A stretch of 64,000 nucleotides of DNA from Natronomonas moolapensis 8.8.11 (GTDB lineage Archaea; Halobacteriota; Halobacteria; Halobacteriales; Haloarculaceae): contig NC_020388.1 of the NCBI RefSeq assembly GCF_000591055.1, positions 1,178,001-1,242,000 of the forward strand. Direction: 5' to 3'. Below the pieces are notes generated by a model that worked only from the letters and a program-made list of their open reading frames with translations, made no database searches and was not told the DNA's origin. Positions 6,984 to 50,405 of the stretch are shown piece after piece. The number at the start of each line of letters is the position of its first letter. The first letter of the stretch is position 1. The position numbers and the translations under genes are program-made.

Positions 6984-7504
6984 TCGACCGCGAACCGGAT
7001 CGGGTCGCCTGTGGCCCCGACCGCGGCCAGACGACGCTCGATTTCGCCATCGCGATGAGCGTCTTCCTGACGACGGTGCTGTTCGTCCTCGCCTACGCGC
7101 CGACGATGTTCGACCCCTTCGCGGGCGGGTCGGGGACGAAACTCGTCGTCGCCGACCGGGCCGCGACGACGCTCTCGACCGACGTGTTGGCCGCATCGAC
7201 GGCCGAACCGGGGGTTCTGTCGGCCAGCTGTTTGAAAGCGTTCTTCGGTGGCGGCGACGACGACTGCTCCACGGGGGATGATCTCGGCAGTAACGATATC
7301 CCTGCAGTCACGAACAGAAACTACAACGTCACCATTCACGATCTCGACGCCTCGGTCGACACCCCAGCAACGCCCCTCGATGAGCCGGACGATATCGAGC
7401 TGACCAAATCGAACTCCGGGTCGGTCCCCACCGACGTCGCCGTGGCGACCCGGACCGTCTCGATCGAGGGCGACCCGTACCGACTGACCGTGAGGGTGTG
7501 GTAG
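6980..7504 (+). CDS. pilin-like membrane protein (operon protein 1)
   Basis: 174 residues starting at the ATG that overlaps the stop of the platform gene. Residues 1-20 are charged and lead into RGQTTLDFAIAMSVFLTTVLFVL, a class III signal-peptide-like region: short positive end, Q-T-T-L-D-F and then a hydrophobic helix of about 20 residues. The remainder is an extracellular-type beta-rich stretch with a cysteine pair (CLKAFFGGGDDDCS). It is probably a minor pilin processed by the prepilin peptidase PibD. Resembles a haloarchaeal family of unknown function (from memory DUF7287). A longer frame extends upstream but lies inside the platform gene and is not used. Confidence 0.75.
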   Translation: MIDREPDRVACGPDRGQTTLDFAIAMSVFLTTVLFVLAYAPTMFDPFAGGSGTKLVVADRAATTLSTDVLAASTAEPGVLSASCLKAFFGGGDDDCSTGDDLGSNDIPAVTNRNYNVTIHDLDASVDTPATPLDEPDDIELTKSNSGSVPTDVAVATRTVSIEGDPYRLTVRVW

Positions 7505-7505
7505 C

Positions 7506-8093
7506 GTGCGCGGGCAGGCCCACACCGTCGAGGCGTTCGTAGCCGCCGTGTTGGTAGTCAGCGGGCTAGTCTTCGCCACGCAGGCGGCTGCCGTCACGCC
7601 GCTGTCGGCGAGCACCTCGAACCAACACATCGAGAACCAACAGCAGGCGACGGTCGAGGGACTGCTCGCGGCGTCGGCCGACAACGGCAACCTGACCGAG
7701 GCGGTGCTGTACTGGAACGCGAGCGCCGACGACGGCGACGGCGCGTTCGCCGGGGCGCCCGAGTCGGGCACCTACGCCACCGGGCCACAGAACGGCTTCG
7801 GTGCGGACCTGAACGGGACGCTGTCGAGCCGACAGATCGCGTTCAACGTCGTCGTCCGCTATCCCGACGGCGACGACACCGGCACCGACACCGAGCCGAT
7901 GGTTCGGATGGGCGAACCGAGCGACAACGCGGTGTCTGCAACTCGGACGGTCGGGCTGTACGACGAATCCAAGATAAAGAACGGCACCTCGCTCGGGGAC
8001 CTCGACGACGACGAGTTCTACGCGCCCGACGCCAACCCCGACAGTCAATTGTACACCGTCGTCGAGGTAGAGGTGATCGCGTGGCGCAAGTGA
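7506..8093 (+). CDS. pilin-like membrane protein (operon protein 2)
   Basis: 195 residues from a GTG one base after the preceding stop. The N-terminus is RGQAHTVEAFVAAVLVVSGL, with a hydrophobic helix to about residue 30, then a polar extracellular region rich in Asp, Gly and Thr. This matches the minor-pilin layout seen in the other genes of the operon (from memory DUF7288). It overlaps the next gene, so translation is coupled. Confidence 0.7.
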   Translation: MRGQAHTVEAFVAAVLVVSGLVFATQAAAVTPLSASTSNQHIENQQQATVEGLLAASADNGNLTEAVLYWNASADDGDGAFAGAPESGTYATGPQNGFGADLNGTLSSRQIAFNVVVRYPDGDDTGTDTEPMVRMGEPSDNAVSATRTVGLYDESKIKNGTSLGDLDDDEFYAPDANPDSQLYTVVEVEVIAWRK

Positions 8094-8926
8094 CCCGCCC
8101 CCGTGGCGGTGACGATGACGTTACTGACAGCGGCGACCGCGGCCAGATGATCCTCCTCATGGGGGTCGTCCTCGCCGTGATGTTCGTCGCGCTGGCGCTT
8201 CTGGTCAACGCCGCCATTTATACCGACAACGTGGCGACCCGCGGCGGGGACCCGGCGGGGGAGGCGCTCGAATATCAACACGGGGTAGTAGATTCGACAG
8301 AGGGACTGATCGAAGCCGAGAACGACGCAGGAAACGCTACTGCTGACGATGTCCGACCTGCACTCGAGAACATTAGCCGATATCACCGTCAGTACCACCT
8401 CAGACGTGGCGCGGCAACGGAGACGGAGTTCGACATTTATCAGGGAATAAATGAAACTGATCAAGACGGATTCAAAAACTGGACGGCAAACGCGAGCGAC
8501 GTCAGGGGTTTTGTAATATATATAGATGGAACGAGGATGGCGAACAGTGATTCGCCGTTCTCTATTTATGTCGGCGGGACCAAACTAAATGTTAACAGGA
8601 CTAGTGATGAGATTGTTGTCGAAGGCGAGAGCTGCTCGGAATCTGTGAGCAGTTCAATTGAGTTCAACGTTACTAGTGGAACCCTCGGTTCCGATTCCTG
8701 TGATTTTGATTTTCAGGATTTCGGCGGCGGAGAAATAGAAATTGAGGACGGGGACAACGGCGCTGGAAGCTACGAACTGATCGTCACGTCGGACGAAAAC
8801 ATCGGATCGTTTCCCTCGCCAGTGAAGACATTTATCCACAGCGTCGATCTGCATATCCGTATCGATACACCGGAATTGAGTTACGCTCGATCGGTGACTG
8901 TCGCACCGGAGGGCACCGATGCGTAG
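8081..8926 (+). CDS. pilin-like membrane protein (operon protein 3), AT-rich body
   Basis: 281 residues from a GTG that lies inside the preceding gene. DSGDRGQMILLMGVVLAVMF is the prepilin-like signal (GQM followed by a long hydrophobic helix to about 42). The first ~70 codons have the host's G/C-ending codon usage, but from about 8280 to 8890 the DNA is clearly AT-rich, with runs such as aatatatatagatgg and many A/T-ending codons. The body contains several cysteines (SCSES, DSCDFD) and acidic repeats. The split in composition suggests that the exposed part was exchanged or is under diversifying selection. From memory resembles DUF7261. Confidence 0.7.
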   Translation: MAQVTRPRGGDDDVTDSGDRGQMILLMGVVLAVMFVALALLVNAAIYTDNVATRGGDPAGEALEYQHGVVDSTEGLIEAENDAGNATADDVRPALENISRYHRQYHLRRGAATETEFDIYQGINETDQDGFKNWTANASDVRGFVIYIDGTRMANSDSPFSIYVGGTKLNVNRTSDEIVVEGESCSESVSSSIEFNVTSGTLGSDSCDFDFQDFGGGEIEIEDGDNGAGSYELIVTSDENIGSFPSPVKTFIHSVDLHIRIDTPELSYARSVTVAPEGTDA

Positions 8927-9392
8927 CGACGACCGCGGCGTCTCCGTCGCCGTCGGCTACGTCCTCGGCCTCGGCATCGCGACGCTCCTGTTTTCGGTAC
9001 TTTTGATCGGCGGGTCGGGGATGATCGAGAACCAGACGCAAACTGTCACCTACGACCAGCTCTCGGTGACGGGCCAGCAGCTCGCCGCGGATCTGTCGGG
9101 GGTAGATCGGTTGGTTCGGGCCGGCGGTGGCGGGGACGGCGCGGGGCTCTCGGAGGTGTCGCTGCGGACCGATCTCCCGAACAGCGTCGCTGCAGGCGGA
9201 TACACGATCGAGATCACGTACACTGAGGCCGACGACACCGGGACGATAGAGCTCCGGAGTTCGTCTCCCGACGTGGTCGTATCGGTCCCGTTCCGGAGCG
9301 TGACGCCGGTTCGGGGGACGACGATCGGCGGCGGCACCGTCGAGACGCACTACGACGGCAGCGAGGACGAGTTGGTGGTGGAGTCGGTATGA
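8919..9392 (+). CDS. pilin-like membrane protein (operon protein 4)
   Basis: 157 residues. MRSDDRGVSVAVGYVLGLGI is a typical archaellin/pilin N-terminus: D-R-G-V-S before a hydrophobic helix (about 8-32). The rest forms a small beta-rich domain with the polar composition of exposed haloarchaeal proteins. It overlaps the genes on both sides (8 bases and 4 bases). Likely a minor pilin or tip component of the pilus assembled by the ATPase and platform upstream (from memory DUF7266). Confidence 0.7.
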   Translation: MRSDDRGVSVAVGYVLGLGIATLLFSVLLIGGSGMIENQTQTVTYDQLSVTGQQLAADLSGVDRLVRAGGGGDGAGLSEVSLRTDLPNSVAAGGYTIEITYTEADDTGTIELRSSSPDVVVSVPFRSVTPVRGTTIGGGTVETHYDGSEDELVVESV

Positions 9393-10138
9393 GGACGACG
9401 TCTGCCATCGGCTCGGACGACCGCGCCGTCAGCGACGTCGTCGGCTACGTCCTCGTCTTCTCGCTCATCACGCTCTCGATCGGCGCGATCACTGTGGGTG
9501 GATTCTCGACGCTACAGGACCGACAGGACGCCGAACGGATCAACAACGCCGAGCGCGCTTTCGACGTCTTCGCCGGCAACGTGGAGGACGTCTATCGGGA
9601 CGGCGCGCCGAGTCGCGCGACGGAGATGCGGCTGTCGGGGGGGACGTTGCGGTACGGGGAGCCAGTCACTATCACCGTAGCGGACGCCACTAGCTCCGAT
9701 ATAAAAACTACTGTTCAGACAACGCCGCTGGTATACGCCAATGGTCGGACGGAGATCATCTACGTCGCTGGCGCAGTGATACGGAGTGAACGCGATTCAG
9801 CAGTAATGCTTCGCGAACCACCGTTTAAAATCACTGCTGACAGCACAGTCGTGCCAATTATCGCAATAACCGCTCCGTCTGATCAACCGACGATCTCCCG
9901 GGAGTTGGCGCACACAAGAGTCGAAAGTACACGTCGGAACCCCACCCCGAATCCGGATCTATCGGCAGACGGAAACCGTATTACAATCACTGTTGAATCT
10001 CCATGGAGTGACGCTTGGGAGCGGTATTTTGATCGTCAAGCTGAGCCCGAAGCTGTCAAAAGCGATGGGCAGTCAGTAGAAATCGAGACCGATCGCATCT
10101 CGACACCGGTATCGCGAATCGATCTACACATCAGGTAA
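9389..10138 (+). CDS. pilin-like membrane protein (operon protein 5), last gene of pilus operon
   Basis: 249 residues. DDRAVSDVVGYVLVFSLITL is the class III signal-like N-terminus (AVSDVVGYVLVF is close to the ArchaeN/pilin motif). After about residue 95 the DNA becomes AT-richer (9680-10138) and codon use departs from the first third. It is the last gene of the operon; ten bases later the convergent gene on the other strand ends. From memory related to DUF7289. Likely exported and membrane-anchored or built into the fibre. Confidence 0.7.
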   Translation: MRTTSAIGSDDRAVSDVVGYVLVFSLITLSIGAITVGGFSTLQDRQDAERINNAERAFDVFAGNVEDVYRDGAPSRATEMRLSGGTLRYGEPVTITVADATSSDIKTTVQTTPLVYANGRTEIIYVAGAVIRSERDSAVMLREPPFKITADSTVVPIIAITAPSDQPTISRELAHTRVESTRRNPTPNPDLSADGNRITITVESPWSDAWERYFDRQAEPEAVKSDGQSVEIETDRISTPVSRIDLHIR

Positions 10139-10148
10139 AATCGTATCC

Positions 10149-11573
10149 TCACCCAAATTCAACCTCGACAGAGCGTTCACTCACGTGGACGTAGTTTACT
10201 AGATCAGTACCCAATTCGGGGGTTATATTATTCATCGATTTATCATGGTTAAAAATAGCGCCTTTGTTTGTGATTCCAAACTCCCGAACCACGACCGACC
10301 CATCTACGGTGATAGTTCCCCCTTGATAAAGAGTTGCGTTCGGTGCGTAGATCCCGCCAGCGTAATTAACGGTGCCGGATAGTTTAATTTCTTTACTGTC
10401 CGAATGCACGTAAATTACGAACTGTTCAGGATCACCGTTGATATTTATATCATTATTACCGGATATATCAATTCCCCCACCGCTATTTAAATACACCTCC
10501 ACAGTCCCATCACCCTCAATGTCGATGTTTCCTGCATCCGTGATTCCGTCATTATCCACATCATCGATGACAATTTTAACATCGCCATCGGTAGTGTTTA
10601 TACTCAGGTCCTGAAACTCGTCGGGGTCTTCCGTACAGTGTGTTCCCGTTGATACTGACGACGCAATCGGTCCCCACTCGGAACACTCGCCAACCTGGGA
10701 TTCGATTTCGGAATCCGCGGGTGGTGCGTCGATACCCTCTCTGTGATTTTCAACAGTCGGATTGCCGTTACTAGTATTTTTATTCGATGTGATTGCCGCA
10801 CCGAACACCGGCGACAGCGACGCGTCTAACGCTATCTTGACGGTATCGTCTTCACCGCACTCCTCCCGTGGGCTCTCCTCCATCTGGCCCTCGAAGAACG
10901 ATTGCCAGCCGGTACAGTACTCGCTCTCGATTTCGACGTACACCGTGCCCCCGGAGAGTGGGTTGGTGAGCGGGCTGTCATCGGGGTACAGCCGCTGAGA
11001 CCCCTTTTCAGAGCTGACTGCCCCGCGAACGTCACCCGACGCCGCACCGCTACCGGTCACGTTTATAATGGGAAACGTCAGCGTTTCGGCGCGGTAGTGG
11101 AACTCCGGCGGCGAGAGCATCCGGCTAAAATCGCCCTGTCGCGCCCAGACGCCGCCGCCCTGATACGCGATCTCGCGGCCGTCGTTCTCGTAGACGAGTG
11201 CCCCCATCGTGGCGTCGGCAATACACGTTCGCTCACTATCGTCGCTAATATCGTCACAGTCGTCGAAATCGCCGCTACCATCGTCGCTCCGGTCCACCCA
11301 GATCCTGACGCGCCCGGCGTCCTCCCGGACGTCGACCTGACCCTGAGAAACTCGCCCCAACGAGAAGCGCTGGTGGCCGGACTCGCCCAGCCCGACGAGG
11401 CTGGCCTTCGAGGAGAACGCCGACATCGAGTTCTCCATCTGGGAGCGCTCGGCGTCCGCGCGCGTGTTGTCGATCACGGCACCGCCGGCCGCGAGCAGCG
11501 CCCCGACCGAGAGAACCGTCATCCCGAGGATGAGGATGACCCCGACAGGGTTCGAGACGGCGCGGGTTGTCAT
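10149..11573 (-). CDS. large pilin-like surface protein with AT-rich C-terminal domain
   Basis: 474 residues. TTRAVSNPVGVILILGMTVL is a prepilin-like N-terminus with a hydrophobic helix at about 8-33. The first two thirds (to about 10,800 in DNA) use normal codons and share the general plan of the last pilus-operon protein (AEALTF... PEFHYR, then an Asn/Cys region). The C-terminal third is AT-rich and has regularly spaced beta-strand-like segments with Asn/Asp (DGDVKIVIDDVDNDG, GGIDISGNNDIN), suggesting a right-handed beta-helix or autotransporter-like exposed domain. It converges on the pilus operon and has its own promoter region. Probably a pilus-associated adhesin; the role is inferred. 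Confidence 0.7.
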   Translation of the reverse strand: MTTRAVSNPVGVILILGMTVLSVGALLAAGGAVIDNTRADAERSQMENSMSAFSSKASLVGLGESGHQRFSLGRVSQGQVDVREDAGRVRIWVDRSDDGSGDFDDCDDISDDSERTCIADATMGALVYENDGREIAYQGGGVWARQGDFSRMLSPPEFHYRAETLTFPIINVTGSGAASGDVRGAVSSEKGSQRLYPDDSPLTNPLSGGTVYVEIESEYCTGWQSFFEGQMEESPREECGEDDTVKIALDASLSPVFGAAITSNKNTSNGNPTVENHREGIDAPPADSEIESQVGECSEWGPIASSVSTGTHCTEDPDEFQDLSINTTDGDVKIVIDDVDNDGITDAGNIDIEGDGTVEVYLNSGGGIDISGNNDININGDPEQFVIYVHSDSKEIKLSGTVNYAGGIYAPNATLYQGGTITVDGSVVVREFGITNKGAIFNHDKSMNNITPELGTDLVNYVHVSERSVEVEFG

Positions 11574-38258: not shown

Positions 38259-38282
38259 CACGATAGCTTGCTATACGATATT

Positions 38283-40484
38283 ATGACTGTCCCGATTACT
38301 GTCCTGCACGTCGACGACGATCCGGCGGTCGCGGACGTGACTGCGGAGTTCCTCAAGCGCGAGAACGACTACCTAGACGTCGAGGCGACGACCAGCGCCG
38401 AGGAAGCCCTGCGGATACTCGCGGACCGGCCTCCCGACTGCATCGTCTCCGATTACGATATGCCGGGCACGGACGGTATCGAGTTCCTCGACGATGTCCG
38501 CGAGCGGTATCCGGAGTTGCCGTTCGTCCTCTACACCGGCAAGGGAAGCGAAGAGATCGCTGCGGAGGCCATTTCGGCCGGCGTCACCGACTACATTCAA
38601 AAACAGGGTGGAAACGAGCGCTACCTGCTTCTCGCGACCCGGATCCGAAACGCGGTCAAGAGGTACCGGGCCGAGAAGGCCACCGAAGAACAAAAAGAGC
38701 AGCTTCGATTGTTCTTTCAGGAATCGTCAATCGGGGCGATACAGTGGGACGACACGTTCCGGTTCAAGCGCCTGAACGACCGGGCCGAGGAGATTCTCGG
38801 CTACGAGGAAGCCGAACTGCGCGGCGAGTCCTGGGAGACGATCGTCGCCGCCGACGACCGCGGACGCGTCGGCGACGTCGTTTCGGACCTCCTCGACGCC
38901 GACGGAGGGAGGAACATCCTCAACAGAAACGTCCGAAAGGACGGCGACGTCCGGATCTGCGAGTGGTACAATCGGGTCGTCACGAACGAGGACGGCGAGG
39001 TCGAGGCCATCTTCTCGCAGTTTCAGGACGTAACGGAGCGCGAGCGACGCAAGCGGGAACTGGCGGAGCACGAGACCATCGTCAGCGCGTTGCCCGACGC
39101 GGTGTACGTGATCGATGAGGACGGGCGGTTCACACACGTGAACGAGGAGCTCGTCGAGTTGGTGGGGTACGACCGGGAGACGATCATCGGCAACACACCG
39201 TCGTTGTTCAAAGACGATGACGCGGTCGAGCAAGCCGAGGGGCAACTGCGGCGACTGTTGTCGAGTGACGGCCCGGAGACAGTTTCGTTCGAAGTGACGC
39301 TACAGCCACGGGACGGAACCCCGGTGGTCTGTGAGGACCACATGGGCGTACTCCCTTACAACGGCGAGTGCTTCGAGGGCTCGGTCGGAACCCTCCGGGA
39401 CGTCACCGACCAGAAGCAACGGCGCGAGGAACTCGACCGCCGGACCGAGGAACTCAAGGCGTTGAACACCCGCCTCGAAGCCCAGTACCGGCAGCTCTTC
39501 GAGGAAGCGCCGGTCATGGCGGTCGTGACGGAAATGGAGGGGGACACGCCGATCATCGAGGACTGCAACCGGCTGTTCGCCGAGCGGTTGGGCTACGAGA
39601 GGGCGGCGGTCGTCGACGAACCCCTCGAGTCGTTCTACGCACCCGAGTCGCGCCGACGGTTGCTGGATCGCGGCGGGTACGAGCGGGCGCTGGACGGCGA
39701 GTTCGCGCGCGAGCGCCGGAAGCTGCTGACCGCCGACGGTGAGACGATCGAGACGCTCCTTCGGGCAGTTCCTCGGCGGGAGACGGACGAAGACGCGGAC
39801 AGCACGCTCAGGCTATACGTCGGTCTCGACGGGAGCGAACAGCTCTTTCGGGAGCGAGAGCGCTTAGACGAGTTCAGCAGCATCGTCGGCCACGACCTTC
39901 GGAGTCCGTTGCAGGTCGCCGAGGGGCGGCTGGAACTCGCCAGCGAAGCGCACAGTAGCGAACATCTCGACACGGCGCGGGCCGCCCTCGACCGGATGGA
40001 TCGGATCATCGAGGACGTGCTGTGGCTGGCGCGCAACGGCCGGGACATCGGGTCGGTGAACCCGGTCCCGGTCGGCGAGCCGATCGAGGCGTCGTGGGGG
40101 CTGGTGAGCGATGCCGCCGAGGGGGCGACGCTGCGGTACGCGGACGGGCTCTCGGAGGCGACGATACGGGTCGACGAGGACCGATTCCGCCAGCTGCTCG
40201 AGAACCTGTTCGGAAACGCGATCGAACACGGCGGCGAGGGAGTGACAGTCACCGTCGGGCGGGTGGACGACGGGTTGTACGTCGAAGACGACGGTCCCGG
40301 TGTCGCTCCCGCAGCGCGCGACGAGATATTCGGCGCGGGGTACTCGACGAGTGAGGACGGGACCGGCTTCGGGCTGCGCATCGTCGAGCGGGTCGCCGAG
40401 GCTCACGGCTGGGCGGTTCGCGTCGTGGAAGGGTCCGACGGCGGGGCGCGGTTCGAAATAACCGGGATCGATTCCCTCGAGTAG
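38283..40484 (+). CDS. receiver-PAS-histidine kinase hybrid
   Basis: 733 residues. N-terminal receiver (about 1-125) with the acidic pair in VLHVDDDPAVAD and the phosphoacceptor Asp in CIVSDYDMPGTDGIEFL, Lys in DYIQKQGG. Then at least three PAS domains (about 140-260, 265-385, 400-515). HisKA: FSSIVGHDLRSPLQVAEGRL with the phosphorylated His. HATPase: NLFGNAIEHGGEGV (N box), EDDGPGVAP (G1), GTGFGLRIVERVAE (G2). No membrane helix, so cytoplasmic. The ATG at 38283 is 24 bases after the 338-bp element. Confidence 0.9.
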   Translation: MTVPITVLHVDDDPAVADVTAEFLKRENDYLDVEATTSAEEALRILADRPPDCIVSDYDMPGTDGIEFLDDVRERYPELPFVLYTGKGSEEIAAEAISAGVTDYIQKQGGNERYLLLATRIRNAVKRYRAEKATEEQKEQLRLFFQESSIGAIQWDDTFRFKRLNDRAEEILGYEEAELRGESWETIVAADDRGRVGDVVSDLLDADGGRNILNRNVRKDGDVRICEWYNRVVTNEDGEVEAIFSQFQDVTERERRKRELAEHETIVSALPDAVYVIDEDGRFTHVNEELVELVGYDRETIIGNTPSLFKDDDAVEQAEGQLRRLLSSDGPETVSFEVTLQPRDGTPVVCEDHMGVLPYNGECFEGSVGTLRDVTDQKQRREELDRRTEELKALNTRLEAQYRQLFEEAPVMAVVTEMEGDTPIIEDCNRLFAERLGYERAAVVDEPLESFYAPESRRRLLDRGGYERALDGEFARERRKLLTADGETIETLLRAVPRRETDEDADSTLRLYVGLDGSEQLFRERERLDEFSSIVGHDLRSPLQVAEGRLELASEAHSSEHLDTARAALDRMDRIIEDVLWLARNGRDIGSVNPVPVGEPIEASWGLVSDAAEGATLRYADGLSEATIRVDEDRFRQLLENLFGNAIEHGGEGVTVTVGRVDDGLYVEDDGPGVAPAARDEIFGAGYSTSEDGTGFGLRIVERVAEAHGWAVRVVEGSDGGARFEITGIDSLE

Positions 40485-40844: not shown

Positions 40845-41948
40845 TCACTCCACGCGCTCGAGGCCCGTCAGTTCGATGCGCGCCCCCCCGAGAGAGGCCT
40901 CGGAGACCGCAACGTTCCAGCGGTGGGCCGCAGCGACGTGTCGAACGCGAGCCAGCCCGAATCCGGCGTGGCCTCGGGCGTCGGACATCCCGGTTCGGAA
41001 CGCGTCGTTTCGTTTGTCCTCGGGGATCCCCGGGCCGTCGTCGGCGACGTAGAACCCATCGGGGAGGGCGCCGACCTCGACGGTCACTCCCGGCTCCGAG
41101 TGTTCGATGGCGTTTCGATACAGTTCCCCGAACACCCCCCGGAGCCGCTCGCGGTCGGCGACGACCGTCCCGAACGCCGCGTTCCCGTCGAGACCACGGC
41201 GGTCAGCGTCGCCGGTGTCGAGATCCACCCAAGCGGATCGGGCTGTCGACGCCAGATCGACGGCGTCGGCCGAGACGACCGGACGACCCTGCTGGACCAA
41301 CGCGTTCAGCTCGTCGAGAAACGAGTCGATGCGGTCGAGGGCGTCAAGCCCCTTTCGAACCGCCTCGGGGGTGTCGTCCTCGCGGGCCGCGTCGGTCCCG
41401 TCGCCGAGATACTGGAGATAGCCGGTTGCGACGTTCAACGGGCTCCGCAGATCGTGCGAGAGGGCGTGCCTGACGTCCTCGAGTCGTTCCCGTTCCTGTT
41501 TGGCGGCCCGTCGATGGACGGCCACACCCCCGGCAGTCGTGTCCCCGGGCGGGCGGCCGGGGCCGAGCGTCCGCCGAACCCGCTCGATCAATCGGTCGAT
41601 CGGATCGGGCGTCCCCCGACGGACGTATCCGGAGACGCCGGCTTCGAGTGCAGCGGCCGCGAGCCCCTCGGATCCGTCGGTGACGAACAGCACGAACGGA
41701 GCGGTCGGCGACGCGAGGCGGCGTGTCCGCTCTCTGGAGAGCTCGACACCGTCCATCCCCGGGAGGGAAGCGGCGCTGACGATGCAGTCGACCGGTTCCG
41801 CGAGCGCCCGAAGGGACGCAAGCGCGGACTCCGCGTCGGGCTCCGAGAGCACCTCGACTGCCGTTTCGAGCTGTGAGAGTCGCGCCGTTATCGCAGCGTT
41901 GTCTTCCGATTCGATCCCGACGAGCAGCACGCGGCGTGTCGACCCCAT
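40845..41948 (-). CDS. histidine kinase with degenerate receiver domain
   Basis: 367 residues, start at 41948 (MGSTRRVLLVGIES); the longer frame adds a basic, non-conserved 57 residues. Residues about 6-120 align with a receiver, but the site that should be CIVSD is CIVSAASLPGMDGVEL, and the acidic pair and Lys are also replaced (GIESED; YVRRGTPD), so phosphorylation of this domain is unlikely. HisKA: ALSHDLRSPLNVATGYLQYL. HATPase: ELYRNAIEHSEPGV, ADDGPGIPED and GHAGFGLARVRHVAA. The kinase half is complete. No membrane helix. Confidence 0.85.
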   Translation of the reverse strand: MGSTRRVLLVGIESEDNAAITARLSQLETAVEVLSEPDAESALASLRALAEPVDCIVSAASLPGMDGVELSRERTRRLASPTAPFVLFVTDGSEGLAAAALEAGVSGYVRRGTPDPIDRLIERVRRTLGPGRPPGDTTAGGVAVHRRAAKQERERLEDVRHALSHDLRSPLNVATGYLQYLGDGTDAAREDDTPEAVRKGLDALDRIDSFLDELNALVQQGRPVVSADAVDLASTARSAWVDLDTGDADRRGLDGNAAFGTVVADRERLRGVFGELYRNAIEHSEPGVTVEVGALPDGFYVADDGPGIPEDKRNDAFRTGMSDARGHAGFGLARVRHVAAAHRWNVAVSEASLGGARIELTGLERVE

Positions 41949-42118
41949 TACGACGGGATACGTGCCATCGCAACCAATACGCTTCGGGTCGGCACGGGGT
42001 ATCTGGAGCCCGCGGCACGCGTGTTTCGATCGGCGGCGGACTCGCGCCCGATGGAATCGATATTGATTCAAAAAACCGTAGAAACAATCATATCCCGTCG
42101 GCTCACAGCAGTCATACA

Positions 42119-43168
42119 TTGCCGGGGTCTATCGTTGCGGACTTTCGAGCCGACGTGGACGTAGACGGTCGCTTCGAGGAGGTTACCGACCGGACGCGGG
42201 TCGTTCTGAACGAGTCGAAGTTGGGTTTCGAGTTCGATGGCGAAAAACAGGTGTTCGAGCTATCGAGCGTCTTCGACGTCGTGCAGGGTGTTTCGCGGGG
42301 CCAAGAATCCGGATCGACCGGAACCGTCACCCTCGCGTCCCGAACCGATGGCCACCGAACGGCCATCTCGATCAACGCCGGCGTCGAGCGGTTGGTCACG
42401 TTCCAACAGGTCCTCTACAAACAGCTCCTGAGCGGAACGGACGTCGTGTTTCGGTGTCGGGACCGCGCCGGCACTGTCAACGGCGGACCACACGAGGGGA
42501 CGCTGGCCGTCAGCCCCTCGTGGATCCGGCTTTGCCCCGACGGGACGGGCAAGTCGGTCAGCATCGCCAGAGACGAAATAATCAGCTTCGAGACGCCGTC
42601 CAGCGTGTCCGGGCAGGACGACAAGCGGCCGGCAGTAGCTATCTACGCTGACACCGGCGATCGGGTTCTCAAGGTGACCACGAGTCTGCCGTCGTTTCGG
42701 CTTCTCAATCTGTTCGGGCGGTATCTGCGGGCCGACCTGTTGTCCACCGACGCGATCGGGACCGCATCCGACGACGTCGACACGATCGACCTCCTGTTCG
42801 TCGACGACGATCCACACGATATCGAGATGGCGGGCGTGTTTCTGCGTCAGCACCTCGAGGGGCTATCCATGACTACGGCCACGGGCGCCGCGGACGCACT
42901 CGACGTTCTCGAAGACACTCCGAACGACGGCGGGATCAACTGCATCGTCAGCGACTACCAAATGCCCGGGATGGACGGCATCGAGTTCCTCAACGAGGTC
43001 CGCGAGCGGTATCCGGAGTTGCCGTTCATCCTCTACACCGGCCAGGGCAGCGAGACGGTCGCAAAGCAAGCGATTCTCGACAACGTCACCGACTACGTCG
43101 AAAAAGACGTCGGGCGCGGGCAATACGAGGTGCTCGCCGAGCGGATCCGAAAGGCAATCCGCTCCTGA
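42119..43168 (+). CDS. CheF-like domain fused to a receiver domain
   Basis: 349 residues, probably from a TTG at 42119, since no ATG or GTG occurs in frame near the domain start (GSIVADFRADVDVDGRFEEV). Residues 1-230 follow the CheF pattern from memory: VADF start, KLGFEFDGEKQVFELSSVFD, VTFQQVLYKQLLSGTDVVFR, and LNLFGRYLRADL at the end. Residues about 235-349 form a complete receiver: LLFVDDDPHDIEM, phosphoacceptor Asp in CIVSDYQMPGMDGIEFLNEV, TGQGSETVAKQA and DYVEKDVG with the Lys. CheF links CheY-family signalling to the archaellum motor. The receiver resembles that of the 38.3-kb kinase closely. Confidence 0.75.
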   Translation: MPGSIVADFRADVDVDGRFEEVTDRTRVVLNESKLGFEFDGEKQVFELSSVFDVVQGVSRGQESGSTGTVTLASRTDGHRTAISINAGVERLVTFQQVLYKQLLSGTDVVFRCRDRAGTVNGGPHEGTLAVSPSWIRLCPDGTGKSVSIARDEIISFETPSSVSGQDDKRPAVAIYADTGDRVLKVTTSLPSFRLLNLFGRYLRADLLSTDAIGTASDDVDTIDLLFVDDDPHDIEMAGVFLRQHLEGLSMTTATGAADALDVLEDTPNDGGINCIVSDYQMPGMDGIEFLNEVRERYPELPFILYTGQGSETVAKQAILDNVTDYVEKDVGRGQYEVLAERIRKAIRS

Positions 43169-43235: not shown

Positions 43236-46200
43236 ATGGCTCGCGCGGAGGACACCGAGGTCATCGACAAGTTCGAGACGTTCTATCGGGACTACTACCG
43301 GAACGAGATCGGCCAACTCGCACAGAAGTACCCCAACGAGAAGCGGTCGCTGTACGTCGATTGGAACGACCTCTATCGGTTCGACCCGGACCTCGCGGAC
43401 GACTTCATCGCCCAGCCCGATCAGATGCTCGAGTACGCCGAGGAGGCGCTCCGGCTCTACGACCTGCCGGTGGACGTGAAGCTGGGACAGGCCCACGTCC
43501 GGGTGCAAAACCTCCAGCGCACGACCGGTATCCGTGACATCCGCGCGCGCCACCGCGGCCAACTCGTCGAGGTGAGCGGCATCGTCCGGAAAGCGACTGA
43601 CGTCCGCCCGAAAGTGATCGAGGCGGCCTTCGAGTGCCAACGCTGTGGCACGCTGACGCGGATCCCACAGACTTCCGGGGAGTTCTACGAACCCCACGAG
43701 TGCCAGGGCTGTGAACGACAGGGTCCCTTCGACATCAATTTCGATCAATCGGAGTTCGTCGACGCCCAGAAACTCCGGGTTCAAGAATCCCCCGAGGGCC
43801 TCCGCGGCGGCGAGACGCCCCAGAGCATCGACGTCCACATCGACGACGACATCACGGGGCGGGTCACCGCCGGCGACCACGTCCGCGTGACGGGCGTTCT
43901 CCACCTCGAACAGCAGGGCTCGAACCAGGAGAAATCGCCGGTCTTCGACGTGTATATGGACGGGATGGCCGTCGAGATCGAGGACGAGCAGTTCGAGGAC
44001 ATGGACATCACCGACGAGGACAAAAAACGGATCATCGAACTCTCCAACGAGTCCGACATCTACGAGAAGATGATCGCCTCGATGGCGCCCTCCATCTACG
44101 GTTACGACCAGGAGAAACTCGCCATCATCATGCAGTTGTTCTCCGGTGTGACGAAGCATCTGCCCGACGGCTCCCGGACGCGTGGCGATTTGCACATGCT
44201 TCTAATTGGAGATCCGGGTACGGGTAAGTGTCTAAAATCTGATACGAAAGTCTCACTTCCGGACGGAACGCAACGGGAAATCGGTAAACTAGTCGAAGGG
44301 AACCTCGATGATCCCACCCCAGTTGACGACGGTTTTTATCAGAAATGCTTCATACCGGTGCTGACGACTGACGGCCGACGGATCGTTCCCGGTACCGCGA
44401 GCAAACTCTGGAAGCGACAGACACCGGAACGGATGTACAACATTCGAACCGAAAGCGGCAACACACTCGAAGTGACTCCCTCGCATCCGCTCTTCAGGCA
44501 GATCGAGGGGAGGTTGGAGCCGACTACTGCGTCGGAGTTGGAGGAAGGCGATTTTATCGCAACACCGACTGAACTCCCGAGCGAACCGGACGAGTCGATC
44601 GACATCCAGTACGCGCCGTCCGAGTCACCGAACGCGAACAGGTTACATGCTCCCGAGACGCTCACCGACGGGGTTGCGAGGCTCATAGGCTACGTCGTCG
44701 GCGAGGGGCACATCTCCGGCGGGGAGTTCAGTCAGGAGGTCACGGTCACGAATGCGGACGAGGAGATTCTCGAGGACGTCAGCACCGTACTCGGGAGTTT
44801 GGGGCTGCGATACCGGCGGCAACCACATCAGACGAAGCCGAGCGTCTCGACAGTTAGATGCTCGTCCGTGGAGCTCGCCCGATTCTTTGAGGCGTTGGAA
44901 CCGAACATGCTCGAGCGCTCCGCCCACCAGCGCGTGCCGGATGTCGTCCTTCGCGCAAGGCCACAGCGGAAAGCCGAATTCCTCCGAGCGTACGTCGACG
45001 GGGAATGTACGGTGTCCCCGAAGGAACGGGAGATAGTCGTCGCGTCGATGAGCGAGGAGCTGCTCGAAGACGTGCAGAGCCTGCTTCTCTCGTTCGGGAT
45101 CCAGAGCCAACTCCATCCCCGTAATAACGACAGCTACCGGCTCAGAATCAGCGGGGCCGATTTCGAGCGTTACGTCGGCCGAATCGGGTTCGTCACGGAA
45201 CGGAAGGCCGTCTCGGCCGCCGAGTTCGACGACGTCGAGGCGAACACGAACACGGACGTCGTTCCGAACGTGGGGGGAACGCTCCGGGACGTCCGCGAAG
45301 CCCTCGCCCTCTCGCAGTTCGACTGCGGCGTCCCCCGAACGACGTATCAACACTACGAACGCGGGGACCGAAACCCGAGTCGATCCACCCTGCACACTGT
45401 CCTCAATGCGTTTGAGGCGCGCACGGAGCGGCTGTCGGCGCTCCGCGAACGGGTCACCGACGGCGGGTGGGACGCGATCGTCACCGCCCGCGACGAACTC
45501 GGCATCTCGCAGGCGGCGTTGGCCGACGGCATGGACGTCTCCCAGACGGCTATCAGCTACTACGAACGAAACGAGGTCGCCCCCGACGGCGGCTGCGTGA
45601 TGGACGCAAGCGGGGTCGTCTTGGATCGACTCGACGCGGCGCTCTCGGTCGCGGAAGACATCGACCGACTCAGAGCGCTCGCCGAAAGCGACATCGGGTG
45701 GGACCGGATCGACTCGATCGAGGCTGTCGACCCGGACTACGAGTGGGTCTACGACCTTGAGGTCGAGGGGACACACACGTACATCTCCAACAACGTCGTC
45801 TCGCACAACTCCCAGTTGCTCCAGTACATTCGCAACCTTGCTCCACGATCTGTTTATACATCTGGCAAAGGATCGTCCAGTGCCGGTCTCACCGCTGCGG
45901 CTGTCAGAGACGACTTCGGCGACGGCCAACAGTGGACGCTCGAGGCCGGCGCGCTCGTGCTCGCCGATCAGGGGATCGCGGCTGTCGACGAACTCGATAA
46001 GATGCGGTGTGTTACCGGTGATACGCTTGTGCATCTATCTGACGGACGTCTCTCCCGGATTAATGAGCTCGCACGCGAGGCAAAACAGGGAGGAACCATC
46101 GAAGAGCTTCCTAACGGGCGTACGATCCGTAATATCGATCTGACGGCGTGGACGATGTCCGATACTGGTCGTCTCGTCGAGCGTCCGATAACTGCCATTC

Positions 46201-49200
46201 ACGAGTACGGAGCGCCGGAAGAACTCACCGAAATCACCCTTGAGTCGGGGGAACGGATCTCCGCGACTCACGATCATCCGTTCTTCGTATTCGAGGATGG
46301 GAAACGCCACAAGCGACCGGCGACCGATCTCGAGCCAGGCGACTGGACGTACGTCCCCAAGCAACTCTCGGAACCGACAACCGACGGAGGGATAGCTTCG
46401 GACAGCGGTGGAGGTTCGATATCAAGCCACAACGTCCAACCCTCCTTCGGTGCGGTACTTGGGTATCTTTCGGGGGACGGTAACGTCTATTACAACCGCC
46501 ACGAGGAACGCTACGGGATTCGTTTTATTAATAATCAAGAAGAGCTTTTGCAGGATTTCGAACAGGCCTGCATAGATGCCTTCGGTAAAGTGCCCGTGCG
46601 ACACCCGAGCGGGCAGCGGAATGATGGGGTTGAGACGGTCCGACTCCACGGTCGCGAATACGCTGACAGAGTTCTTGACGCCGGAATGAACGTCGAAACG
46701 CACGATGACAAATCGTTCCCAACCCGTGTCACAACTGGCACGAGACGAACGAAAGCAGCGTTTATTCGAGCGTTCGCTGACAGCGAAGGTAACGTCGATT
46801 CCAGCACAGGAAATGTACGAATGTACTCCGCAAGCGGGGAGATTCTCTTAGGAATAAAAAGTCTCTTGTTGGAGTTCGGCATTTCCTGTCAGATCCGAAC
46901 TCGGGAGCGGAGTGAAAAGCGTGACATCCACGTCCTTGGGATTACATCAGCGGAGTCGATTCGATCGTATAACCGACATATCGGCTTCACTCTCGAGCGA
47001 AAACAGGATGCACTTGCTGAAGTCTGTGCCTCCGTCGATGGAGATCGGACGACCATAGACGTGCTTCCTGACTGCGGCGATCTACTTAGAGACGTTCGGG
47101 CCTCGCTACGACTACACCAGTCCGAATGCGGGATCGACGGCACGACCTACTGTAATTTCGAAAACGGTGACGCGAACTGTTCACTTCACCGCGCCAGCAC
47201 GATCTTAGAGGCGTTCGAAAAGCGGATCGAAACTGCGAACCGGGATACAGAGGTGTTGGTCGATGATTGTAATTGGGATTCCCTCCAGCGTCTCAAAGAT
47301 CGCTATCACGTCTCACAGGGGGAACTTGCAAACGGTACAGCACTCAGCCAGCAACAAATCTCTAAGGGGTGGGAAAATAGTGAGGACGTTCGTGAGATCG
47401 TTCGAGCTGAACTGCACAGGCTCGTTGTGGACGTCTCTAATACGGAACTGTCCCCACTCGATGATCTGATCAACGGAGATGTAAAATGGAGACGAGTCAG
47501 ATCCGTCGATACGGTTGTATCCGGGCCGAAAAACGACCGAATCCCGATTCTACAGCAGGAACTTGCGGACGTACTTGATTCTCCGCCAGCCGAAGTAACG
47601 TCTCGGGCACAGGAGCTCCTTGATCGAAACTGCAAGATTGAGTCGTGGACGACACTTCGCGACGAGCTTGACACATACGGAATCCCGTTGTGGGTCCTCG
47701 GGTCGGATCTCGGTGTGACTGGTTTGACGATCTCTCGGTGGTCGAACGGCATCGTCGAGACTGATCGATTCGAAGAAGTCAAAACCGCCGCAGAGAACCG
47801 GATTTCGGAGAAGTGTTCTAAAATTCGAAAGCTCCTAAACGAGATCGAGTCTCGACGAGAGGCGAACGTTTATGATCTGACTGTCGAGGGAACACACAAT
47901 TTCGTCGCGAACGGAATGGTCGTGCACAATTCCGAGGACCGCTCGGCGATGCACGAAGCGCTCGAGCAGCAGTCCTACCACCCCGACACCGAACTCCTGC
48001 TGGCGGACGGTCGTCGCGTCGACATCGGCGAGTTCGTCGACACCCGTATGCAGGAACATCCGGAGCGGGTCACCGACGGCGTCGATTGCGAGATCCTCCC
48101 CGTCGAGGACGTCCGGGTCCACTCGACTGATTTCGAGACCAACGAGACGACGAAACTGCCTGTCGATCGCGTGAGCAGACACGAGGCACCCGAGGAGTTC
48201 GTCCGGGTGTCGTTCTCCAACGGCCGGGAGGTGACAGTCACGCCCGAGCATCCGATGTTCGTCGATGACGGTGGCGAGATCGGTACCGTCGAGGCCGACG
48301 ACATCGAGGTGGGCGCGTTCGTCCCCGCGCCGCGAAAGCTGCCTAATTCGAGCGCCGCAGTCGAACTCGACGGCGAACCACACCGCGGCAAGGAGAAGGA
48401 CGTACGCCTGCCGGCGGAGCTCTCGGGCGATCTCGCGGAGATCCTCGGCTTCCTCGTCGCGGAGGGACACGCCTACGCCGGCTCGACCCACGAGATCGGC
48501 TTCTCCAGTCACGACGAGCGGTTACTGGAGCGGATGGACCGACTCGTGCAGTCGGTGTTCGGCGTAGAGAGCACCGACACGACGAACGCCGCCGGGACGG
48601 TGACCAAACGGTGGGTCTCGACGGAGCTCTACCGGTGGTTCCAGCGCAACGTCCCCGGCGTCATGGAGACGGCCCGCGACAGGCGGGTCCCGGACCGAGT
48701 GCTGGGCGCCTCCGAGGAGGCGATCCGCCGGTTCCTCGTCGGCGCGTTCGCGGGCGACGGCGGCGTCGAGAGCGAGGCGATGTCCTTCTCGACCGCCTCG
48801 GACGGTCTCGCGGAGGACTACGCCGACGCGCTGGCGAAGGTCGGCGTCGCCTCTCGGATCCACCACGACGCGACCGAGGACTCCTGGAAGGTGTACGTGA
48901 TGGGTGATTCGACCGAGCGGTTCGTCGATTCGATCGTCGATCCCGCCGACGAGCGATACGAGGAGGCACAGGCGTTCGTCGAACGGAGCAACGAAGCGAG
49001 ACGACACCACGACGTCCTTCCGACGAGCGCCGCGCGCGAGCTCCGAGACCTCAAGCGATTGCTCGGCGTCGGACGCACCGGGAAATTCCGGACGCATTTC
49101 GACGAAGGCTACGGTATCCAAATCGAAACGGTGCGCGAGGAGCTCGAAGCACTCCGGACCCGAGCTGAGGAGGTCGAACGAGCGATACAGCAGGCCGAGA

Positions 49201-50405
49201 CCCTTGCCGAGATCAGAGCGGTAGTTGGCTGGTCGGGCCGACAGTTGGCGGACCGGATCGAGGGAGCAACGACGGGAACGATACACTACGCCGAGAGCGG
49301 CGGATACGACGCGGCTCGGCGCTCCGAGTTGGCCGACCACGCAAGGAATGCCGCATACGCTGCCCTCGATGAGTTCGACAATAGAGCCGGGCGACTGGAT
49401 GATCGCTGTGACCTCCGATACTACCGCGTCACGGACGTCGAGACGATCCCAAACGAGGGCGAAGACGCCTGCGAGTGGGTCTACGACGTGACCGTCGAGC
49501 CGACGAACACGTTCGTGAGCCGGGGCGTCGTGCTTCACAACTCGATCTCCATCTCCAAGGCCGGAATCAACGCCACCCTCAAATCGCGGTGCTCGCTTTT
49601 GGGTGCTGCGAACCCCAAGTACGGCCGCTTCGACCAGTACGAGCCGATCGGCGAGCAGATCGACCTCGAACCGGCACTCATTTCGCGGTTCGATCTGATC
49701 TTCACGGTCACCGATCAGCCGGACGCCGAGGAGGACGCGAACCTCGCCGAGCACATCATCAACACCAACTACGCGGGCGAGTTGCACACCCACCGCGAGA
49801 ACACGACGACCTCGAACGTTTCCGAGGAGGAGGTCGAAAACGTCACCGAGGACGTCGAGCCAGAGATCGACGCCGAGTTGCTCCGGAAGTACGTCGCCTA
49901 CGCCAAGCGGAACTGCTACCCGATGATGACCGAGGAAGCCAAAGCGGAGATCCGGGACTTCTACGTCGACCTGCGCGCGAAGGGTCAAGACGAGGACGCC
50001 CCGGTCCCGGTGACGGCCCGGAAGCTGGAGGCGCTGGTGCGGCTCGCGGAGGCCTCCGCGCGGATGCGGCTGTCCGATACCGTCGACAGCGGGGACGCCG
50101 AGCGCGTCATCGAGATCGTCCGCTCGTGTCTCCAGGACATCGGCGTCGACCCCGAGACCGGCGAGTTCGACGCCGACGTCGTCGAGACCGGCCAGAGCAA
50201 GACCCAACGCGACCGCATCAAGAACGTCAAGTCGCTGATCGCCGAGATCGAGTCCGAGTACGACGAGGGTGCGCCGATAGAGACGATCCTCGACCGCGCC
50301 GAGGAGGTCGGCATGGAGCGCTCCCAGGCCGAACACGAGATCGAGAAGCTCCGTCGACAGGGCGACGTGTACGAACCGACGACGGACCATCTGAGGACGG
50401 TGTGA
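43236..50405 (+). CDS. mcm: MCM replicative helicase precursor with three inteins
   Basis: 2389 residues, which reduce to 698 after removal of three inteins (residues 332-858, 925-1565, 1580-2102), the normal haloarchaeal MCM length. Extein features: N-terminal domain with zinc-binding Cys pairs (CQRCGTLTRI, CQGCERQG), Walker A IGDPGTGK completed by Ser after intein 1, Walker B LADQGIAAVDELDKMR interrupted by inteins 2 and 3, then KSRCSLLGAANPKYGRFDQY, the arginine finger ALISRFDLIF and a C-terminal winged helix. All splice junctions have C or S at +1 and HN at the end followed by S, so splicing should restore GDPGTGKSQLLQY and DELDKMRSEDRSAMHEALEQQS. Unwinds DNA at replication forks. Confidence 0.97.
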   Translation: MARAEDTEVIDKFETFYRDYYRNEIGQLAQKYPNEKRSLYVDWNDLYRFDPDLADDFIAQPDQMLEYAEEALRLYDLPVDVKLGQAHVRVQNLQRTTGIRDIRARHRGQLVEVSGIVRKATDVRPKVIEAAFECQRCGTLTRIPQTSGEFYEPHECQGCERQGPFDINFDQSEFVDAQKLRVQESPEGLRGGETPQSIDVHIDDDITGRVTAGDHVRVTGVLHLEQQGSNQEKSPVFDVYMDGMAVEIEDEQFEDMDITDEDKKRIIELSNESDIYEKMIASMAPSIYGYDQEKLAIIMQLFSGVTKHLPDGSRTRGDLHMLLIGDPGTGKCLKSDTKVSLPDGTQREIGKLVEGNLDDPTPVDDGFYQKCFIPVLTTDGRRIVPGTASKLWKRQTPERMYNIRTESGNTLEVTPSHPLFRQIEGRLEPTTASELEEGDFIATPTELPSEPDESIDIQYAPSESPNANRLHAPETLTDGVARLIGYVVGEGHISGGEFSQEVTVTNADEEILEDVSTVLGSLGLRYRRQPHQTKPSVSTVRCSSVELARFFEALEPNMLERSAHQRVPDVVLRARPQRKAEFLRAYVDGECTVSPKEREIVVASMSEELLEDVQSLLLSFGIQSQLHPRNNDSYRLRISGADFERYVGRIGFVTERKAVSAAEFDDVEANTNTDVVPNVGGTLRDVREALALSQFDCGVPRTTYQHYERGDRNPSRSTLHTVLNAFEARTERLSALRERVTDGGWDAIVTARDELGISQAALADGMDVSQTAISYYERNEVAPDGGCVMDASGVVLDRLDAALSVAEDIDRLRALAESDIGWDRIDSIEAVDPDYEWVYDLEVEGTHTYISNNVVSHNSQLLQYIRNLAPRSVYTSGKGSSSAGLTAAAVRDDFGDGQQWTLEAGALVLADQGIAAVDELDKMRCVTGDTLVHLSDGRLSRINELAREAKQGGTIEELPNGRTIRNIDLTAWTMSDTGRLVERPITAIHEYGAPEELTEITLESGERISATHDHPFFVFEDGKRHKRPATDLEPGDWTYVPKQLSEPTTDGGIASDSGGGSISSHNVQPSFGAVLGYLSGDGNVYYNRHEERYGIRFINNQEELLQDFEQACIDAFGKVPVRHPSGQRNDGVETVRLHGREYADRVLDAGMNVETHDDKSFPTRVTTGTRRTKAAFIRAFADSEGNVDSSTGNVRMYSASGEILLGIKSLLLEFGISCQIRTRERSEKRDIHVLGITSAESIRSYNRHIGFTLERKQDALAEVCASVDGDRTTIDVLPDCGDLLRDVRASLRLHQSECGIDGTTYCNFENGDANCSLHRASTILEAFEKRIETANRDTEVLVDDCNWDSLQRLKDRYHVSQGELANGTALSQQQISKGWENSEDVREIVRAELHRLVVDVSNTELSPLDDLINGDVKWRRVRSVDTVVSGPKNDRIPILQQELADVLDSPPAEVTSRAQELLDRNCKIESWTTLRDELDTYGIPLWVLGSDLGVTGLTISRWSNGIVETDRFEEVKTAAENRISEKCSKIRKLLNEIESRREANVYDLTVEGTHNFVANGMVVHNSEDRSAMHEALEQQSYHPDTELLLADGRRVDIGEFVDTRMQEHPERVTDGVDCEILPVEDVRVHSTDFETNETTKLPVDRVSRHEAPEEFVRVSFSNGREVTVTPEHPMFVDDGGEIGTVEADDIEVGAFVPAPRKLPNSSAAVELDGEPHRGKEKDVRLPAELSGDLAEILGFLVAEGHAYAGSTHEIGFSSHDERLLERMDRLVQSVFGVESTDTTNAAGTVTKRWVSTELYRWFQRNVPGVMETARDRRVPDRVLGASEEAIRRFLVGAFAGDGGVESEAMSFSTASDGLAEDYADALAKVGVASRIHHDATEDSWKVYVMGDSTERFVDSIVDPADERYEEAQAFVERSNEARRHHDVLPTSAARELRDLKRLLGVGRTGKFRTHFDEGYGIQIETVREELEALRTRAEEVERAIQQAETLAEIRAVVGWSGRQLADRIEGATTGTIHYAESGGYDAARRSELADHARNAAYAALDEFDNRAGRLDDRCDLRYYRVTDVETIPNEGEDACEWVYDVTVEPTNTFVSRGVVLHNSISISKAGINATLKSRCSLLGAANPKYGRFDQYEPIGEQIDLEPALISRFDLIFTVTDQPDAEEDANLAEHIINTNYAGELHTHRENTTTSNVSEEEVENVTEDVEPEIDAELLRKYVAYAKRNCYPMMTEEAKAEIRDFYVDLRAKGQDEDAPVPVTARKLEALVRLAEASARMRLSDTVDSGDAERVIEIVRSCLQDIGVDPETGEFDADVVETGQSKTQRDRIKNVKSLIAEIESEYDEGAPIETILDRAEEVGMERSQAEHEIEKLRRQGDVYEPTTDHLRTV
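44229..45809 (+). other. intein 1 of MCM (after Walker A Lys)
   Basis: 527 residues inserted between GDPGTGK and SQLLQY. Starts CLKSDTKVSLPDG, block B is VTPSHPLF, LAGLIDADG-type motifs are RLIGYVVGEGHIS (about 44680-44715) and LRAYVDGECTV (about 44975-45010), and the end is GTHTYISNNVVSHN. After the second motif come two helix-turn-helix modules (GVPRTTYQHYERGDRNPSRS near 45340 and LGISQAALADGMDVSQTAIS near 45500). Acidic endonuclease residues are kept, so it may still be an active homing endonuclease. Confidence 0.93.
46008..47930 (+). other. intein 2 of MCM (after Walker B DELDKMR)
   Basis: 641 residues between DELDKMR and SEDRSAM. Starts CVTGDTLVHLSDGRL, block B ISATHDHPFFV, endonuclease motifs LGYLSGDGNVYYN and FIRAFADSEGNV, end GTHNFVANGMVVHN. 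It is visibly AT-richer than the extein and than intein 3. It shares with intein 1 the helix-turn-helix tail (GIDGTTYCNFENGDANCSLH and RYHVSQGELANGTALSQQQI), and adds a third (PLWVLGSDLGVTGLTISRWS). Confidence 0.93.
47973..49541 (+). other. intein 3 of MCM (after HEALEQQ)
   Basis: 523 residues between HEALEQQ and SISISKAG. Starts with Ser (SYHPDTELLLADGRRVDI), block B VTPEHPMFV, endonuclease motifs EILGFLVAEGHAYAG and FLVGAFAGDGGVE, end EPTNTFVSRGVVLHN. G+C and codon use match the host, suggesting long residence. A C-terminal region (about residues 1930-2040 of the precursor) has another possible helix-turn-helix (VVGWSGRQLADRIEGATTGT). Only 14 extein residues separate it from intein 2. Confidence 0.93.

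Follow-up and report, generated by a model that had tools for sequence, protein, structure and literature searches.

A CheF-type adaptor module joined to a receiver domain in Natronomonas moolapensis and other haloarchaea

Can a CheF-type adaptor carry its own receiver domain, and would such a protein bring signals to the archaellum by a route outside CheA and CheY? CheF is the protein known to couple a chemotaxis system of bacterial type to the unrelated motor of archaea, and the question is raised by a gene of Natronomonas moolapensis 8.8.11, a motile strain with cheA, cheY, archaellins and one 2.9-Mb chromosome (PMC3623002). The window analyzed here, 64,000 nucleotides in length, covers positions 1,178,001-1,242,000 of one 2,912,573-base contig. 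On that contig, a tRNA-Glu at 1,545,788 adjoins the prophage end that the genome paper places at nt 1,545,787 (PMC3623002). The original prediction, made from these letters, described a CheF-like adaptor fused to a receiver, two adjoining histidine kinases and a possible kinase-to-motor pathway.

A CheF-type module and a receiver in one protein

The fusion gene occupies 42119..43168 on the plus strand as a single open frame, which opens with a TTG at 42119 and is closed by the stop at 43168 (349 residues in the translation of the window). The TTG start is supported, because the orthologs start a few residues ahead of the VADF motif, in most cases with TTG, and because a conserved GAAACAATCATA-like element, recognizable across seven aligned intergenic regions, lies approximately 26 nt upstream of the window TTG. 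This promoter-like element falls within the intergenic region (41949..42118) common to the fusion gene and a divergent kinase gene, and its spacing to the TTG would fit a leaderless transcript. The uncommon start codon is kept in most of the fusion orthologs and in several genera (42119 in the window; L034, L037, L039, L136, L200 and others), which may reflect low expression by design. Downstream, a frame for an MCM helicase of 2389 residues starts 67 bp after the fusion (43236-50405, plus strand), apparently with three intein insertions as read by eye from the translation; elsewhere in the window, a gene run at 2428-11573 resembles, as judged by reading, an archaeal type IV pilus or secretion cluster, with a large ATPase, a membrane protein and several small pilin-like proteins.

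That the receiver would be produced separately from an internal start, such as the linker TTG at residue 208 of the window gene, leaving no functional fusion, is hardly credible. The frame is uninterrupted, both halves each form one clade, and the linker of seven orthologs contains no ATG, GTG or TTG; the receiver therefore does not have a start of its own, and two separate proteins are ruled out.

The motifs quoted in the original prediction (VADF, LYKQLLSG, LNLFGRYLRADL, CIVSDYQMPGMDGIEFL and VRERYPELPF) are all present, and the family match that it had set as a test was found: PF04283 (CheF-arch) matches residues 6-205 (42134..42733, plus strand) with 54.7 bits against a gathering cut-off of 25. 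Each of the 18 aligned orthologs likewise matches both PF04283 (at E <= 0.001) and PF00072. When the N-terminal part was compared by sequence with PDB chains, no significant match was obtained, and the tie of this part to a solved structure therefore rests on Pfam and on structure comparison. The AlphaFold2 model, built from the 18-row alignment, shows two PH-like domains, a disordered linker (residues 207-220) and a receiver (mean pLDDT 78.9; 84.6 for a model of the first 210 residues alone). With the latter model, the best Foldseek match is the crystallized CheF 7ovp (E 4e-8), and VIA-align superposes the N-terminal model on 7ovp with Z 15.3 and 3.2 A over 191 residues, covering both PH domains, while the next rows have Z 12.9 or less and mostly cover a single PH domain. 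VIA-align on the full-length model returned receivers only and is uninformative for the N-terminal part. The double PH fold of CheF, for which a structure prediction had been proposed, is thus the predicted fold of this module.

The module is nevertheless altered. All 24 canonical CheF1 and CheF2 proteins in the alignment have the motif HPAxxGGxV, which none of the 18 fusions retains; on the model, its position would fall within the second PH domain (PH2), in the first loop, and a conserved His of PH2 is also lost in the fusions. Together, these losses indicate a changed PH2 surface, so that docking may differ from that of CheF.

The receiver spans residues 222-349 (42782..43165, plus strand) and is complete, as originally described: PF00072 (Response_reg) matches residues 226-334 with 63.5 bits, and the acidic pair D229/D230, the phospho-Asp D279, T307 and K329 are invariant in the 18 orthologs. 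Between the two parts lies a linker of approximately residues 206-221 (42734..42781, plus strand), with pLDDT below 50 across residues 207-220, where canonical CheFs have the start of their C-terminal domain. In CheF, that domain comprises approximately 83 residues and is responsible for both dimerization and CheY-P binding (PMC9126983). In the fusion it is missing, as only about 17 residues separate the PF04283 match from the receiver, which means that the receiver sits where the CheY-P-binding tail would be. Without this tail and without HPAxxGGxV, the fusion is not a canonical CheF. No CheW match to the fusion protein was found in Pfam down to E 1.

Origin and distribution of the fusion

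A survey of haloarchaea, as the original prediction had suggested, gave 19 full-length orthologs with a patchy distribution. Within the family, 9 of 146 genomes have one, and a class-wide sample of 391 genomes includes 12 carriers. Carriers include Natronomonas, Halorientalis, Halorubrum, Haloglomus and Haloplanus, and in Halorubrum two of the copies are on plasmids; phage records contained no match to the fusion. The alignment and the trees comprise 18 of the orthologs, and L200 (Halorubrum ezzemoulense) is an additional locus. A further sequence, G123:C1:831351-832145, matches fusion residues 66-347 with two internal stop codons; it may be a second copy in decay, or else a receiver match that was extended too far.

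In the tree of CheF modules, the 18 aligned fusions form one clade (100/99), which joins haloarchaeal CheF2 with support 100/100, apart from CheF1. The identity of the module is approximately 26% to CheF2 and 16% to CheF1, and an NLxGRY/F-type helix leading into the tail is common to the fusions and CheF2. The fusion receivers also form one clade, placed inside the hybrid-histidine-kinase group with a branch support of 99 against CheY and CheB, which rules out CheY as the source of the receiver. The two trees thus point to a single event in which the PH domains of a CheF2-type protein acquired a kinase-type receiver. The fusion of CheF with a receiver is thus real and conserved, but the original description needs amendment in that a CheF2-type protein has here exchanged its tail for the receiver.

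The special likeness that had been noted between this receiver and that of the kinase at 38.3 kb did not hold up; the two are 54% identical, but dozens of haloarchaeal kinase receivers show 50-58% identity to the fusion receiver, and many are equally similar.

The window genome keeps a canonical CheF1 in its che region and a CheF2 directly after ArlJ, and the fusion gene (at 1.22 Mb) lies outside both the che region (1.67 Mb) and the arl/CheF2/CheY region (2.15-2.17 Mb). ArlD/E, CheA and canonical CheF were each found in all 15 fusion genomes searched. With two more genomes reached via named loci, ArlD/E is present in 17 of 17, a count that leaves out the genome of Haloglomus irregulare and may represent 16 distinct genomes, as one of these two (Halorubrum kocurii) has a contig of the same size as G426, counted before, and appears to duplicate it. 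Given that ArlD/E is found in 305 of the 391 haloarchaea, the association between fusion and archaellum is consistent but statistically weak.

Histidine kinase neighbors

Two histidine kinase genes adjoin the fusion in the window, as originally noted, but only the divergent one is a conserved partner. This gene (40845..41948, minus strand) encodes a protein of 367 residues with a pseudo-receiver-HisKA-HATPase architecture in Pfam, and has orthologs in seven loci. Its true start is probably 41948 and not 42119, leaving a shared intergenic region of 170 bp. The kinase is soluble and has no recognizable sensor domain; in the alignment, the phospho-Asp of the pseudo-receiver is replaced by Ala in seven of seven orthologs. 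The other neighbor (38268..40484, plus strand) is a hybrid histidine kinase, REC-PASx3-HisKA-HATPase in Pfam. We rejected it as the conserved partner, since it does not flank the fusion in L034, the nearest ortholog, and its kinase core falls outside the partner clade.

Leaving aside one of the 19 loci, which stops at a contig edge, 18 are informative for neighbors, and in 12 of these a histidine kinase gene is found immediately beside the fusion, with gaps of 19-296 bp. These kinases represent five kinds or arrangements: the divergent soluble pseudo-receiver-HisKA-HATPase kinase (seven loci), a shorter divergent kinase (L038), a convergent 7TM-PAS-GAF kinase (L039 and L040), a divergent REC-GAF-PAS kinase (L138) and a divergent REC-PAS kinase in H. 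ezzemoulense (L200). The latter locus (471800-484822) is on the 607-kb megaplasmid NZ_CP034941.1, and its fusion gene is flanked by two MCP (chemoreceptor) genes as well as by the kinase gene. Six loci from two lineages (L041, L047 and L139-L142) have no adjacent kinase; at L139, transposase-like genes are found nearby.

With 22 HisKA matches above the cut-off in the genome (25 at E 0.001) and a proteome of approximately 2,846 proteins (PMC3623002), adjacency by chance would be near 2% per locus. Within the seven-locus group, the kinase tree is congruent with the fusion tree, including members of a second family (G306 and G396), which is the pattern that transfer of the pair as a unit would leave. 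Synteny and congruent trees thus make the link between kinase and fusion well supported, and suggest that the adjacent kinase would transfer phosphate to the receiver.

A candidate second input to the archaellum switch

The explanation that we favor, with modest confidence, is that a CheF2-type archaellum adaptor has been turned into a response regulator, the fusion, in which a dedicated kinase would phosphorylate D279 and the PH module would act on the archaellum switch. The pair of PH-like domains is kept from the CheF2-type adaptor; in CheF these domains are thought to contact ArlCDE, sitting on the switch ring (PMC9126983). The dimerizing, CheY-P-binding C-terminal domain has been swapped for a hybrid-kinase-type receiver, which would be phosphorylated by a dedicated histidine kinase, here the divergent soluble one. 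Phosphorylation of the receiver may then alter dimerization or the angle at which the PH module is held, and the module may in turn bias, brake or compete at the switch, in parallel to the CheA-CheY-CheF1 route kept by the same genome. Tail-deleted CheF retains its polar localization, for which the tail is not needed (PMC9126983), so that localization at the motor could persist in a PH module that has acquired a different tail. We infer docking on ArlCDE from homology and from this published localization, an argument weakened by the loss of HPAxxGG, and the sign of the effect on reversals is likewise conjectural. The original interpretation is thus partly supported. A kinase route outside CheA and CheY is favored by the hybrid-kinase-type receiver, the adjacent kinase in 12 of 18 loci and the absence of the CheY-P-binding tail, but direct action on the archaellum is conjectural and an unchanged docking on the motor is uncertain.

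Several observations count against this explanation. Deletion of CheF2 in Halobacterium had only minimal effects (PMC2666748), a C-terminal GFP on CheF abolished its function (PMC9126983), and Haloglomus irregulare, a carrier species, has been described as non-motile (PMC7074781). The low identity of the module to CheF2 and the six loci without an adjacent kinase should be added to these.

The alternative that survives best, though it seems unlikely to us, is that the PH module no longer works at the motor and, after the loss of HPAxxGG, binds another partner (e.g., CheD/CheC, a chemoreceptor array or the kinase itself), tuning the chemotaxis network rather than the switch. This would agree with the absence of the motif from all fusions and with the low identity to CheF2, with the reported interaction of CheF1 and CheF2 with CheD and CheC2 (PMC3579733), and with the MCP genes adjoining the Halorubrum copy. 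Against it, the double-PH fold is retained, as are CheF2-like residues of the first PH domain and the relay helix.

Less probable still, and in our judgment doubtful, is a CheV-like adaptor, in which CheA would phosphorylate the fused receiver to provide adaptation feedback or a phosphate sink for normal chemotaxis. Bacterial CheV, a CheW-like domain with a receiver, offers a precedent (PMC12691637); CheA is encoded in all 15 fusion genomes examined, and one species has MCP neighbors. However, the receiver is of the hybrid-kinase type, neither CheY- nor CheB-like, the fusion gene lies outside the che and arl clusters of the window genome, and dedicated kinases are adjacent instead. CheV and the fusion share the logic of a chemotaxis adaptor domain followed by a C-terminal phosphorylatable receiver; in CheV the adaptor is CheW, on the side of the receptors, whereas in the fusion it is CheF, on the side of the archaellum motor, and the phosphate is likely to come from a non-CheA kinase.

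When compared with CheF itself (DUF439, PF04283), and especially with the CheF2 proteins of the OE2404R group, the fusion has the same double PH fold, PF04283 match, VADF N-terminus and NLxGRY/F-type relay helix. In contrast to CheF, it lacks the dimerizing, CheY-P-binding C-terminal domain and HPAxxGG, carries its own receiver and is encoded outside the che/arl cluster of the window genome; in the 2009 CheF paper, the family was confined to che regions except for two paralogs (PMC2666748). Archaeal response regulators in which the receiver is associated with lineage-specific domains (HalOD1, HalOD2, MetOD5-REC and others) similarly combine a haloarchaeal receiver with an output domain acting by protein contact, but in the fusion the output is CheF (Galperin, 2018). 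CheF goes unmentioned in the main text of that survey of two-component proteins in archaea, and we found no description of a CheF-receiver fusion in the open-access papers searched. The only annotated homolog that we looked at closely, in H. ezzemoulense, bears just the name 'response regulator', under which such proteins are easily overlooked.

Returning to the reading of the fusion as a response regulator of the archaellum switch, an exchange of tail for receiver would be a natural version of CheY-CheF coupling, and provides a self-contained protein in which to study the movement of the PH module on ArlCDE upon phosphorylation. A wider suggestion, plausible though more tentative than the preferred explanation itself, is that haloarchaea carrying the fusion have a second input to the archaellum, in which ordinary sensor kinases (soluble, PAS/GAF or 7TM) would act through the CheF-receiver protein on the switch, without CheA, CheY or receptor arrays. 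If this is true, the archaeal motor would be addressable by other kinases.
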